Of a stretch of 64,000 nt of DNA, positions 6,752 to 62,619 are shown in pieces (the stretch's first letter is position 1; each line of letters starts with the position of its first letter). The notes under the pieces were generated by a model. That model was given only the letters and a program-made list of their open reading frames with translations. It was not told where the DNA came from and ran no database searches. This DNA is from Clostridioides difficile ATCC 9689 = DSM 1296 (GTDB lineage: Bacteria; Bacillota; Clostridia; Peptostreptococcales; Peptostreptococcaceae): assembly GCF_001077535.1 (NCBI RefSeq), contig NZ_CP011968.1:1798001-1862000 (forward strand). The letters run 5' to 3'. Made by a program: the position numbers and the translations under genes.

Positions 6752-6873
6752 AGCTAATTTAGACTCATCTTTCAGTATAATACTGCAGGATTTAGCACCA
6801 ATGTATATAAAAATATACTGGTTGCTGGGTTTCATAGGGCCAGTCCCTTCACCACTCTGGATAAGAAGTATCA
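6752..6873 (-). promoter_or_regulatory. SAM-I (S-box) riboswitch
   Basis: Read on the minus strand it carries the S-box core: CTTATCCAGAGTGGTGAAGG, GGACTGGCCCTATGAAACCC, AGCAACC and a later GGTGCTAA followed by a TCC. The order and spacing fit the four-way junction of SAM-I. Binding of S-adenosylmethionine should favour the downstream terminator and switch metQ off. Confidence 0.95.
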
Positions 6874-8103: not shown

Positions 8104-8285
8104 GTGAATAGAAGGGTAGAGGCGCAATAATCTATCAGTACTAATAAGGAGTTAAGCACAGAGAGTTATTAGGAAAGGAGATATTGCCGAAGTTTTATAA
8201 TCGATGCTTTAAGATTATATTGCTGGGGGTACATAGAAAATATGTACAACTGTCACAGGTTTATTTGTGGTGAGCTATCATTTAA
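8104..8285 (+). promoter_or_regulatory. Lysine riboswitch (L-box)
   Basis: It contains the L-box signature in order: GGGTAGAGGCGC, GGAAAGGAGATATTGCCGA, TGCTGGGGGT, AACTGTCACAGGTTTATTTG and GGTGAGCTATCA. These are the conserved segments of the five-helix lysine aptamer. It lies upstream of the NhaC-family transporter with a terminator between them, so lysine should turn that gene off. Confidence 0.96.
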
Positions 8286-11689: not shown

Positions 11690-11915
11690 AATGAGATTAG
11701 CGAGAGAGTCCTTTATACGAAAAGGCGCCGAAGAAGAAATTTAAGAAATGCCAATTTTTAGAGAAGCTTTCAGGCAAAAATATCGCTAATTGATGGGACT
11801 CTGGAGAGACTTAAGTTAAGATACTATAAGTCACCGAAGAAGCAAAATAATATTAAATTATTAAATCTTTCAGGTATACAAACAGGGATATATAGGCTAG
11901 GATTATTTTCCATGC
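11690..11915 (+). promoter_or_regulatory. Tandem glycine riboswitch
   Basis: Two glycine aptamers in series. The first runs from GCGAGAGAGTCC through GGCGCCGAAGAAG and CTTTCAGGCAAAA to GGGACTCTGGAGAGA; the second repeats CACCGAAGAAGC and CTTTCAGGTATACA and ends near GGGATATATAGGC. The core segments CCGAAGAAG and TTTCAGG recur in both. A possible terminator arm GATATATC followed by nine T lies at 11928-11938. Glycine binding should switch on gcvTPA-gcvPB. Confidence 0.96.
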
Positions 11916-21620: not shown

Positions 21621-22768
21621 GTTTTATATTAACTAAGTGGTATGTAAATCAAAGAAGCTCCACCCCATCTGTTTTTTATTATAGCGTTTTATATTAACTA
21701 AGTGGTATGTAAATTGTTTTCCATGAACATTTCGAGCTGACTTTTATTGTGTTTTATATTAACTAAGTGGTATGTAAATAACTTCTTGTTTTTTCTTTAA
21801 AACATGTACTTGGTCGTTTTATATTAACTAAGTGGTATGTAAATAAATCAATGCCAACTATAGGAACGTCGGGATTAATTGGTTTTATATTAACTAAGTG
21901 GTATGTAAATGGAGTATAAGGTAAATCGTAAGCAACTCCAGAAAGAGGTTTTATATTAACTAAGTGGTATGTAAATGAATTACAATATTATCTCCAGCAT
22001 CAAGACTAGGATGTTTTATATTAACTAAGTGGTATGTAAATCTGATAGAAAAAGAAGATTATTTGAAAGTTGAGACTAGTTTTATATTAACTAAGTGGTA
22101 TGTAAATAAAGATTGCAATAGATTTCCTGTTAAAATAGGTACAGGTTTTATATTAACTAAGTGGTATGTAAATGAAATAATAAATAGCATTGTCGAATGG
22201 TTTGCAAGCCGTTTTATATTAACTAAGTGGTATGTAAATTATAGCTAATTATTAGATTCAATTTTAATTTCGTTAAGTTTTATATTAACTAAGTGGTATG
22301 TAAATATTGCAACACTTCATCAGTTGATAAATATAGTATATTGTTTTATATTAACTAAGTGGTATGTAAATTTATACATATTTGTAGCTCCTTGCTGAAC
22401 TGTTGCAGTTTTATATTAACTAAGTGGTATGTAAATTGGTTAAATCTCCAACAGAACATTTATCTAAATTACAAGTTTTATATTAACTAAGTGGTATGTA
22501 AATCTTGTTAATGCAAATAAACAACATAGCACTATTAATAGTTTTATATTAACTATGCGGTATGTAAATAGGGTTTCTGATAAAATCTTCAAACATGTAA
22601 AATATGTGTTTTATATTAACTATGAGGTATGTAAATCTTATACTTAGTTAGAACTATATATCGACACAAATATGCTTTATATTAACTATATGGTATATAA
22701 ATTGCAATTTTTATTCGTTGTCCAATCTCTTTGAAATTTGTTTTATATTAACTAAGTGGTATGTAAAT
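21621..22768 (+). CRISPR. CRISPR array, 18 repeats of 29 bp and 17 spacers, no cas genes nearby
   Basis: Repeats begin GTTTTATATTAAC and end GTGGTATGTAAAT, the type I-B repeat of C. difficile. They start at 21621, 21686, 21751, 21816, 21882, 21948, 22013, 22079, 22145, 22211, 22277, 22343, 22408, 22475, 22541, 22608, 22674 and 22740. Spacers are 36-38 bp. Repeats 1-14 and 18 are identical. Repeats 15, 16 and 17 differ: all share A16T, plus T18C in 15, T18A in 16, and T2C, G17A and G24A in 17. Degeneration at that end and the leader on the left set the polarity left to right. No cas gene is in the window, so processing and interference must come from a cas operon elsewhere, which is the rule in this species. 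Confidence 0.99.
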
Positions 22769-42409: not shown

Positions 42410-42732
42410 ATTGTATAATTTAATTTTAATACTGTCAATAAATTATTAAATAATATAAGTTAATATATTTTTATGGATAATAAATTAATGTTATTAATTG
42501 TAATATTTAAGATATTATTGTATAATAATAATCGGTTTAAATGCGCCACATCTTATTAAAGTTGGTTCATAATTCTAAATAAACTTTAATAAGATACACT
42601 AAAATATAATAAATTCTTTTATGCTATAAAATTTATTTTATAGCTATTAAATCAGATGTTTAAAAATTTTTTAACGGTCTATAGTTTTTAAGAGTCTATA
42701 GTAAGTAGACTAAAAATATGATTTTACATCTG
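42410..42732. other. Intergenic stretch upstream of the preQ1 riboswitch
   Basis: About 320 bases without a gene. It holds a perfect 14-bp inverted repeat ATCTTATTAAAGTT (42550) / AACTTTAATAAGAT (42582) with an 18-base spacer, and a doubled GTCTATAGT (42677 and 42694), the second inside AGTCTA / TAGACT. The promoter of the queuine operon must lie here. Confidence 0.5.
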
Positions 42733-42771
42733 TACTTGTTCGAGAACTCCAAGTATAAAAAACTAAGGAAT
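42733..42771 (+). promoter_or_regulatory. PreQ1-I riboswitch
   Basis: A short stem ACTTG / CAAGT (42734-42738, 42750-42754) encloses the loop TTCGAGAACTC and is followed by the diagnostic A-rich tail ATAAAAAACTAAGGA. This is the compact H-type pseudoknot of the class I preQ1 aptamer. It precedes the queKTL-type operon. Downstream, ACACACCTTTTT / AAAAAAGATGTGT (about 42803-42835) may be the switching hairpin, and AGTTCTC (about 42837) can pair with GAGAACT of the aptamer loop. Confidence 0.9.
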
Positions 42772-42872
42772 TATATAGTGGCAGTATATAATTAATACCC
42801 TTAGACACACCTTTTTGAAAGTGGAAAAAAGATGTGTAGTTCTCCTCGACCACAAATCAAGGAGGATAAAAA

Positions 42873-43841
42873 ATGGAAAAGAGAAAAGTAATAATTGATT
42901 GTGACCCAGGAATTGATGATTCTTTGGCAATTCTTCTGGCTTTAAACTCACCAGAGCTAGAAGTGATTGGAATTACCACATGTTGTGGAAATGTTCCAGC
43001 AAATATAGGTGCAGAAAATGCACTAAAAACACTTCAAATGTGTTCTTCACTAAATATTCCAGTATATATAGGAGAAGAAGCACCACTAAAAAGAAAACTT
43101 GTAACAGCTCAAGATACACATGGAGAAGATGGTATTGGAGAAAACTTTTATCAAAAGGTTGTGGGAGCTAAAGCAAAAAATGGAGCAGTGGATTTTATAA
43201 TAAATACTTTACATAATCATGAAAAAGTATCAATAATAGCACTTGCACCACTTACAAACATAGCTAAAGCACTTATTAAAGATAAGAAAGCATTTGAAAA
43301 TCTCGATGAGTTTATATCTATGGGAGGAGCATTTAGGATTCATGGAAATTGCTCTCCAGTAGCAGAGTTTAATTATTGGGTAGACCCACATGGAGCAGAT
43401 TATGTTTACAAGAATTTATCTAAAAAAATCCACATGGTAGGTTTAGATGTAACTAGAAAAATTGTACTTACTCCTAATATTATTGAGTTTATAAATAGAC
43501 TTGATAAGAAGATGGCAAAGTATATAACTGAAATAACTAGATTTTATATTGATTTCCATTGGGAACAGGAGGGAATAATTGGCTGTGTGATAAATGACCC
43601 TCTAGCAGTAGCATACTTTATAGATAGAAGTATATGTAAAGGATTTGAATCATATGTAGAAGTTGTAGAAGATGGAATAGCTATGGGTCAGTCTATAGTG
43701 GATTCTTTCAATTTCTATAAAAAAAATCCTAATGCAATTGTTCTAAATGAAGTTGATGAGAAGAAATTTATGTACATGTTTTTAAAGAGGCTTTTTAAAG
43801 GTTATGAAGACATTATAGACTCTGTGGAAGGAGTGATATAG
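42873..43841 (+). CDS. queK: Nucleoside hydrolase, queuosine-type (queuine salvage)
   Basis: Inosine-uridine-type nucleoside hydrolase of 322 residues. KVIIDCDPGIDDSLAILLAL at the N-terminus has the calcium-binding DxDxxxDD cluster, and ALAPLTNIAKAL and EFNYWVDPHGADYVYKNLSK are family segments. Placed under a preQ1 riboswitch with an ECF S component and the radical-SAM queuine lyase, it fits QueK, which cleaves queuosine to queuine for salvage. This assignment follows the pathway described for C. difficile and depends on context, since the sequence alone would say only nucleoside hydrolase. CAAGGAGG lies before the ATG. Confidence 0.88.
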   Translation: MEKRKVIIDCDPGIDDSLAILLALNSPELEVIGITTCCGNVPANIGAENALKTLQMCSSLNIPVYIGEEAPLKRKLVTAQDTHGEDGIGENFYQKVVGAKAKNGAVDFIINTLHNHEKVSIIALAPLTNIAKALIKDKKAFENLDEFISMGGAFRIHGNCSPVAEFNYWVDPHGADYVYKNLSKKIHMVGLDVTRKIVLTPNIIEFINRLDKKMAKYITEITRFYIDFHWEQEGIIGCVINDPLAVAYFIDRSICKGFESYVEVVEDGIAMGQSIVDSFNFYKKNPNAIVLNEVDEKKFMYMFLKRLFKGYEDIIDSVEGVI

Positions 43842-43842
43842 T

Positions 43843-44406
43843 GTGAAAAGAAAAATATGTGTAAAAACTATTACACTTATAGCTTTTGGTATTTCTATAA
43901 ATATAATAGGCGCTTTTATAGCTATGGGATTAAGATTACCTGTATACTTAGATTCAATAGGAACTATAATGATAGCTTCACTTTTAGGACCTAAATACGC
44001 TGTTGTTACAGGTGTGTTTGGAAGTTTAATAAGTGGAATTACGTTTGATGTGTATTCTCTCTATTTTGCACCAGTTCAAATATCAACCGGATTACTTGCT
44101 GGAATAGCATTTAAAAAGAATTTTTTAAGAGGTTTAAAAACTCCAATAGGAGTACTTTTATTTGCCATTCCAACATCTATAATAAGTTCAATAATTTCAG
44201 CATTTTTATTTGGAGGTATGACCTCTTCTGGTTCATCATATATAGTGCAAATCTTGAAAGTGTTAGGACTGGGAGATGTTTTTAGTGTGTTTGTAACCCA
44301 AGTATTTACTGATTATGGAGATAAGCTGTTAGCAGTTGTTTTAGTGAATTTAGGATTAAATGCAGTTCCAAAAACTTTAAAGGTATCATTGACTGGAGGA
44401 AAATAG
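43843..44406 (+). CDS. queT: ECF transporter S component for queuosine/queuine
   Basis: Membrane substrate-binding (S) subunit of an energy-coupling-factor importer, 187 residues with about six helices. AMGLRLPVYLDSIGTIMIAS and GPKYAVVTGVFGSLISG are typical S-component segments. It has no ATPase of its own and would use the shared EcfAAT module encoded elsewhere. It starts with GTG, 1 base after the queK stop, with AAGGAG upstream. The position between queK and queL under a preQ1 riboswitch indicates uptake of queuosine, queuine or a related deazapurine. Confidence 0.88.
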   Translation: MKRKICVKTITLIAFGISINIIGAFIAMGLRLPVYLDSIGTIMIASLLGPKYAVVTGVFGSLISGITFDVYSLYFAPVQISTGLLAGIAFKKNFLRGLKTPIGVLLFAIPTSIISSIISAFLFGGMTSSGSSYIVQILKVLGLGDVFSVFVTQVFTDYGDKLLAVVLVNLGLNAVPKTLKVSLTGGK

Positions 44407-44413
44407 ATAGAAA

Positions 44414-45103
44414 ATGGATAGATATAGTGAGATAACAAATAAAAATCAAAGAGAAATTGTTCTGCTTAAAGGATTTCCTTGTATATGGGGAAAGTGTTCT
44501 TTTTGTGATTATATAGATGATAATTCTAATTTAGAAGAAGAGATGAATAAATTAAATCTAAAGGTTTTAAAAAACGTAACTGGGAAATATGGAGTTCTTG
44601 AAGTCATAAATTCTGGAAGCTGTTTTGAATTACCTAAGGATACTTTAGAAAAAATAAAGTGTATTATAAAAGAGAAAAATATAAAAAAATTATTTTTAGA
44701 AAGTCATTGGTCTTACAAAAATAGGCTTAAGGAAATGAGAGAGTATTTTGAAATTCCTGTGGTATTTAAAATTGGAGTTGAAACCTTTGACAATGATTTT
44801 AGAAATAATATTTTAAATAAAAATGCAAATTTTAAGACTCCACAAGATGTAAAAGAATATTTTGATTCACCTTGTATTATGGTTGGAATAAAAGGACAAA
44901 CAAAAGAGATGATAGATAAAGATATAGAGATTATCCTAAATACTTTTGAAAAAGCGACAGTGAATGTTTTTATAAATAATTCTTCTAGTATAAAAAGAGA
45001 TGAAGAGTTAGTGAAATGGTTTGTTAGTAAGTATAAATTCTTGGATGAAAATCCAAATATAGAAGTTTTATACAATAATACAGACTTTGGTGTAGGAGAT
45101 TAG
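44414..45103 (+). CDS. queL: Radical SAM queuine lyase
   Basis: Radical S-adenosylmethionine enzyme of 229 residues. The cluster motif is GFPCIWGKCSFCDY with Cys23, 28 and 31 (CX4CX2C, not the usual CX3CX2C), which is distinctive for this group. NSGSCFELPKDT and the short length suggest a partial TIM barrel. In C. difficile the third gene of this operon releases the queuine precursor base preQ1 from queuine, supplying preQ1 for tRNA modification; the match in order and motif supports that. The gene starts 7 bases after queT and a strong terminator follows. Confidence 0.87.
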   Translation: MDRYSEITNKNQREIVLLKGFPCIWGKCSFCDYIDDNSNLEEEMNKLNLKVLKNVTGKYGVLEVINSGSCFELPKDTLEKIKCIIKEKNIKKLFLESHWSYKNRLKEMREYFEIPVVFKIGVETFDNDFRNNILNKNANFKTPQDVKEYFDSPCIMVGIKGQTKEMIDKDIEIILNTFEKATVNVFINNSSSIKRDEELVKWFVSKYKFLDENPNIEVLYNNTDFGVGD

Positions 45104-45149
45104 CATTAATTTAGTTTAAATTTAAAATTGAAAAGTTTCTTATGTTTTT

Positions 45150-45182
45150 GAAAAAGCTTCTAATAGTTAGAAGCTTTTTTTG
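45150..45182 (+). terminator. Terminator of the queuine salvage operon
   Basis: AAGCTTCTAA (45154-45163) / TTAGAAGCTT (45167-45176), 3-base loop, followed by TTTTTT. Confidence 0.92.
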
Positions 45183-59497: not shown

Positions 59498-59561
59498 GAA
59501 TAATCTACAATAAATGTTTAATAAATGTAGAACAAAATTGCTCTACAAAAACACTCATTAA

Positions 59562-59679
59562 ATATCTTCTTCCATCCAGACTTTACTGTCGGCTTTGGAA
59601 TTTAACCAAATCAACCAAGTTTTACATTGGCTCGCGGGCTATACCGCCGATTGGGAATTTCACCCTACCCCGAAGATTA
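59562..59679 (-). promoter_or_regulatory. FMN riboswitch (RFN element)
   Basis: On the minus strand it begins CTTCGGGGTAGGGTGAAATT, continues CCCAATCGGCGGTATAGCCC and GCGAGCC, and closes with CCAAAGCCGACAGTAAAGTC then TGGATGGAAGAAGAT. These are the RFN core segments in the right order. FMN binding should prevent transcription of the rib operon. Confidence 0.97.
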
Positions 59680-59869
59680 AGTATTAAATTTATATTTAGA
59701 ATGTATCATAAATTATTTTACTTTGCAAACTATTTTTTTAAAAAATATATGTTAATATATAATATAGAATGTCTATAAACTTTGAAATACCACGATTGTG
59801 AATATAAAAATAAAAATTTGAACATAATCAGGAAAGAAGTCTAATTAATTTAAATTAGGAGAGTAATAT

Positions 59870-62353: not shown

Positions 62354-62443
62354 TTTTTAACTTAATAAAAAATAAAATTTGTATTATTGTGTTGAACTAA
62401 TAATTTTGCTGTGTTATACTGAATTTGTAAAAATAATGAAAAA

Positions 62444-62541
62444 TTAGAGCTAGGGGCGCTAGAATTGGCTAGCTGAGAGATAAAGCCGTAACTTACAAAC
62501 CCTAATAACCTGATCAAGATAATGCTTGCGAAGGGAAGCTT
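62444..62541 (+). promoter_or_regulatory. TPP riboswitch (THI-box)
   Basis: TAGGGGCGCTAGAATTGGCT begins the aptamer, followed by GCTGAGAGATAA, ACCTGATCAAGATAATGC and GCGAAGGGAAGC, the conserved THI-box segments. It lies upstream of thiC with a terminator in between, so thiamine pyrophosphate should shut thiC off. Confidence 0.97.
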
Positions 62542-62619
62542 TTTAATATAATTTTATTATATAAATAGGCAAATTATTCAATGTTAGGAGAAATTTGTCT
62601 AAGTGTATATACGATTATA

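Follow-up and report, generated by a model that had tools for sequence, protein, structure and literature searches.

The preQ1-I riboswitch already known to precede queK-qrtT-queL in Clostridioides difficile probably acts as a translational OFF switch, in which an anti-Shine-Dalgarno (anti-SD) segment controls the Shine-Dalgarno (SD) sequence of queK. We infer this from a 64,000-nucleotide stretch of the genome, hereafter the window, and from related leaders: the leader holds two mutually exclusive pairings, and their partners vary in a matched manner among relatives. The features of the window used here are as follows.

42729..42772, + strand: preQ1-I aptamer (RF00522, 43.2 bits against a gathering cut-off of 39)
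42733-42738 (UACUUG) and 42750-42755 (CAAGUA), + strand: aptamer P1, placed within the RF00522 match
42739-42749, + strand: aptamer loop
42742..42748, + strand: aptamer loop segment GAGAACU, candidate alternative partner of the anti-SD
42763-42768, + strand: CUAAGG, contained in the aptamer tail
42763..42804, + strand: predicted anti-P2 hairpin, CUAAGG (42763-42768) with CCUUAG (42799-42804) around an AU stem (from the fold; -9.3 kcal/mol alone)
42778..42784, + strand: nearly invariant 7-nt hairpin loop GUGGCAG (exact in 27/30 unique leaders)
42805..42837, + strand: predicted middle hairpin ACACACCUUUUU / AAAAAAGAUGUGU, directly adjoining the anti-SD (from the fold; -7.7 kcal/mol alone)
42838..42846, + strand: anti-SD AGUUCUCCU (from fold and comparison), predicted to pair with the SD (OFF) or, by inference, with the aptamer loop (ON)
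42860..42867, + strand: SD AGGAGGAU of queK (from the sequence; paired to 42839-42846 in the fold)
42873..43841, + strand: queK, queuosine hydrolase of the IU nucleoside hydrolase family (PF01156, 307.8 bits; role from the available text of PMC11477304)
43843..44406, + strand: queT/qrtT, ECF transporter S component (two family models; role from the available text of PMC11477304)
44414..45103, + strand: queL, queuine lyase, radical SAM, CX4CX2C (PDB 6p78 and motif)
45151..45181, + strand: likely operon terminator AGCUUCUAA-UAG-UUAGAAGCU followed by a U-run (read in the sequence)

The class I preQ1 aptamer proposed in the preliminary description was recovered by the RF00522 covariance model above its cut-off, with an E value of 1.9e-5 in the search of the window. 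In the whole 4.15 Mb genome it was the single match at E<=0.001 (E 2.9e-7). The segment GAGAACU is presumably the P2/ligand-site region of the folded aptamer. Other regulatory RNAs occur in the same window, namely SAM (6762-6867), lysine (8109-8285), tandem glycine (11691-11887), FMN (59560-59681) and TPP (62442-62553) riboswitches. A CRISPR array lies at 21621-22768 on the minus strand, with 15 CRISPR-DR14 repeats at gathering score and a gap between 22503 and 22740.

The three genes lie close together, as had been described, with gaps of only 1 and 7 bases. The 32 solved-structure matches listed for QueK carry other names and are nucleoside hydrolases where named. The QueT protein scored below cut-off with both of its family models, reaching 84.8 bits against 180 for the NCBIfam CD3073-family model and 29.4 bits, just under 30.7, for Pfam ECF_trnsprt (PF12822). 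QueL aligned over residues 1-229 with PDB 6p78, annotated 'Queuine lyase' (E 1e-83), and scored 30.6 bits with the radical SAM Pfam model (cut-off 29.5) and 47.6 bits with the NCBIfam RaSEA model TIGR01210, far under its cut-off of 212. It is 88-96% identical to the proteins of the C. difficile loci L032-L035. The atypical radical SAM motif noted earlier is C23-X4-C28-X2-C31, and the same cysteines were found in 139/139 aligned proteins; the alignment started from 140 loci, less L056, whose aligned region contains a stop; it counts the protein of the window itself, and some genomes are represented twice.

According to the available text of PMC11477304, a review from 2024, a preQ1-I riboswitch lies upstream of C. 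difficile queK, qrtT and queL (CD1682-84), a system for which it cites Yuan et al. 2019. QrtT is described there as taking up preQ1, Q and q, QueK as converting Q to q, and QueL as making preQ1. That text states the route proposed in the preliminary description, in which the substrate is taken up, the base released and preQ1 made from it under this riboswitch, and the sequence agrees. Genes, order, riboswitch class and genus are the same, and no difference between the parts was noticed. Because this arrangement, together with the repression expected of it, is in print, the association of riboswitch and queuine-salvage operon is itself already known. No description of the expression platform of this leader was found in the available text of PMC11477304, and an earlier description elsewhere is possible. 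Repression of the route by preQ1 would be expected from the usual logic of this riboswitch class.

The operon had also been called complete. This holds for the recycling of Q and q to preQ1 but does not extend further, as matches to tgt (TGT, 603 bits) and queG (QueG, 247.8 bits) lie elsewhere in the genome. Neither QueF nor QueH had a match in this genome, which was counted in favour of the preferred reading. Three genome matches exceeded the QueC Pfam cut-off of 22 bits (32.3, 30.1 and 24.3), in ORFs of 397, 288 and 632 aa, and two of them cover only about 60 of 210 positions. They were read as other ATP-binding enzymes because the QueC model also matches 12/14 control genomes; as matches to QueC they were nevertheless counted against the preferred reading. 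A second QueT copy, 29% identical, is found at G000:C1:3376103. A preQ1 element at this copy was considered and rejected: there was no second RF00522 match in the genome at E<=0.001, and nearby only three sub-cut-off microRNA-family matches, which were taken as chance. In the available text of PMC11130926, the C. difficile QrtT proteins are reported to differ, one accepting preQ1 alone and the other preQ1 as well as q and Q.

The minimum-free-energy fold of the window leader (z -2.83) consists of P1 and three further hairpins, the last of which closes the SD. The anti-SD segment AGUUCUCC is complementary both to the ribosome site and to the aptamer loop segment GAGAACU, which itself resembles an SD. 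These complementarities suggest the following cycle. In the roles given by the literature, QueT imports Q, q or preQ1, QueK frees q from Q, and QueL turns q into preQ1 for Tgt. When preQ1 is lacking, the loop GAGAACU would capture the anti-SD AGUUCUC, transcribed 96 nt downstream, and the aptamer tail CUAAGG would pair with CCUUAG, which would leave the queK SD free for translation. When preQ1 is present, the aptamer would use this loop and this tail to close its pseudoknot, releasing the anti-SD onto AGGAGGAU and stopping translation of queK.

Nested folding speaks against this cycle, in that it shuts the SD even in the ligand-free RNA, with seven of its eight bases unpaired at a probability of 0.03 or less. 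It was therefore discarded as proof of the ON state, for which the fold gave the opposite, a closed SD. Forcing the loop/anti-SD helix in the window leader cost 5.9 kcal/mol (-28.9 vs -34.8) because P1 is lost, and when loop and anti-SD were kept from any other pairing as a proxy of the open state, the SD bases were unpaired at only 0.11-0.66. The folds computed here are nested ones, and reaching the ON state would take a pseudoknot or folding during transcription. The gap to the closed SD should shrink if P1 stays and the loop/anti-SD helix forms as a pseudoknot, and this helix may be favoured by the order of transcription, in which the anti-SD precedes the SD.

Support for the proposed switch comes from relatives. 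Leaders were found in 38/40 fetched loci (none was recognisable in L135, and L148 is cut by a contig end), and 30 unique leaders with a recognised start were aligned. Pair counts were made by script because MAFFT put the gap of the short loops off register. Loop type equalled anti-SD type in 37/38 leaders, as counted by a script that searched for the four expected anti-SD strings only. The short type GAGAACU/AGUUCUC occurs in 15 leaders. A type with an extra C occurs in 16, as GAGAACCU/AGGUUCUC in 15 and as GGGAACCU/AGGUUCUC, with G for A, in one; four more are of the AUCCU type, GAGAUCCU/AGGAUCUC. In L141 and L142 loop and anti-SD match over only 6 bases, and the sole mismatch, L151, comes from another family and is without an anti-SD type. 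SD pairing cannot explain this variation, because the extra or changed bases fall outside it. A Watson-Crick helix of at least 7 pairs between the loop and the downstream leader was present in 27/30 unique leaders, compared with a mean of 0.43 and a maximum of 3 for shuffles. Two leaders that differ in type but are each internally matched, L138 and L202, occur in genome G171; L202 (1956-2090) lies before queK-queT and L138 (1762-1905) before queT-queL.

The QueL tree requires the loop type to change 6 times and the anti-SD type 5 times; one change (L125/L129) falls within a single genus, on a branch with good support. Between short and long loops, the supported branches provide two independent contrasts, which point the same way; all branches together provide five, which must all agree because both labels agree in every row. 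Of the two contrasts for the AUCCU type, one agreed and one did not. With so few independent contrasts a sign test cannot reach 0.05, and the tree counts are rough because leaders may have moved between genomes as blocks. Several observations run against the switch or are less tidy: the loop/anti-SD pairing is invariant within Clostridioides, the predicted hairpin of L141 and L142 leaves the SD outside, an equal 6-base loop pairing is found elsewhere in the L142 leader, and the loop of L145, when G-U pairs are allowed, finds its longest pairing at the SD itself.

The competition of CUAAGG with CCUUAG could also serve transcription attenuation as in B. subtilis queC, with preQ1 favouring a leader terminator and the SD hairpin being incidental. 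The queC system resembles the present leader in its aptamer class and in having an alternative helix that draws on part of the aptamer; it acts by transcription termination (available text of PMC11625349), whereas no terminator-like hairpin was found in the C. difficile leader. A scan for perfect stems of 5-12 pairs gave hits in 27/38 leaders, many of them weak or misplaced; the 11 leaders with no hit include all 8 Clostridioides leaders (4 unique). The simple pattern rule applied to the window, which missed the likely operon terminator at 45151..45181, likewise gave none between aptamer and queK. In L124, L125, L128, L138 and L151 the same competition stands beside plausible terminators, and a crude scan found a hairpin under -8 kcal/mol with a U-run in 23/47 leaders of other lineages. 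Attenuation would, however, leave the matched anti-SD without a role, and for the C. difficile leader we consider it unlikely. These 23 leaders suggest a turnover of the expression platform during which the link between aptamer and operon persisted.

Dual control, in which residual attenuation or pausing is combined with the anti-SD switch and the GUGGCAG hairpin provides a further input through a protein, an RNA or a pause site, is an equally doubtful account. Plausible terminator and anti-SD do occur together in some relatives, and GUGGCAG itself is retained in spite of drift in its AU stem, which in our reading of the alignment has U-U mismatches in L140, L143 and L147. A 16-base pattern around it fell just behind preQ1 matches in 31/33 cases among the matches listed, and GUGGCAG appeared in 1/47 other-lineage leaders (L079). 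Against this, no conserved partner of GUGGCAG was found in the leader and there is no known ligand for the hairpin. Pairing with CCAC in the loop of the SD hairpin was rejected, as CCAC is present in only 7/30 unique leaders. The motif could be a protein, RNA or pause site.

That the aptamer pseudoknot itself masks or destabilises initiation with no distal anti-SD, as in short translational preQ1-I switches, is very improbable. In its favour, the translational preQ1-I switches studied are described as having the SD within or beside the aptamer (available text of PMC11625349). Against it, the aptamer here ends 100 nt before the queK ATG and the SD lies outside it.

The translational anti-SD switch preferred here can be set beside known systems. 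T. tengcongensis, C. antarcticum, E. coli and Listeria queT likewise use preQ1-I translational control with the SD in or close to the aptamer (available text of PMC11625349 and PMC12519234), whereas the queK SD begins 88 nt past the aptamer and has its own separate anti-SD. In sequestrator/antisequestrator riboswitches the ligand likewise decides whether the ribosome site is masked (available text of PMC11477304); unlike in those general platforms, the alternative partner of the anti-SD would here be the aptamer's own binding loop. The preQ1-I loop of Peptostreptococcaceae may be an SD decoy that holds a distant anti-SD when empty and frees it when preQ1 binds, perhaps with the GUGGCAG hairpin as a second input, a proposal to which we give about even chances. 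A decoy-loop platform is absent from the modes listed in section 9 of PMC11625349, as far as that text was available, and a description elsewhere is possible.

Within the family of the window, taken to be Peptostreptococcaceae, 38/41 genomes with QueL (E<=1e-10) had a preQ1-I match (E<=0.001), as did 1/30 genomes lacking QueL, counted by genome and not by locus. A covariance model built from 16 aptamers matched 51/96 loci at E<=2.5e-5, all upstream of QueL on the same strand, although nine of the 51 either belong to the model alignment or duplicate one of its rows; at the same threshold it matched 0/20 of loci L152-L171. Among other QueL carriers, for which a sample of 50/76 loci was submitted, RF00522 matched in 48 of the 49 genomes searched at E<=0.1, and 40 were over the cut-off. 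The 47 other-lineage leaders considered above are these 51 loci minus Romboutsia, Terrisporobacter and Peptacetobacter. The distance from aptamer start to the first gene recognised is 58-406 bases in 46/47 and 1009 bases in L089, and only 3/47 (L080, L094, L097) have a Watson-Crick loop helix of at least 7 pairs.

Some further leaders differ in layout. In L049 and L063 the aptamer tail ACCAAG is followed by AUCUC before a GGAGAU-type SD, apparently another platform. The Peptoniphilus genomes of L081, L082 and L086 contain a very short preQ1-I-like leader (L210, L211, L212; 26.4-26.9 bits, below cut-off), which precedes an apparent nucleoside hydrolase and has GUUCUCC and an SD hairpin right after the aptamer. 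Decoy pairing in Peptoniphilus and its kin (L210-L212 and L110) was not upheld, because strict Watson-Crick runs reached only 4 in 4/4 leaders, which does not exceed shuffles; the anti-SD adjoins the SD in these leaders and the loop pairings are longer with G-U allowed, so such pairing is suggestive only.

In sum, the link between riboswitch and operon is not new, and what this study adds is a proposal for how the sensor may hide the start signal of the first gene. If true, the decoy-loop platform would account for the control of a ribosome site 88 nt away by a very small aptamer. Gut bacteria and host share Q precursors as a micronutrient. Since C. difficile is reported to depend on salvage of Q precursors (available text of PMC11477304), the switching of this operon bears on competition in the gut.
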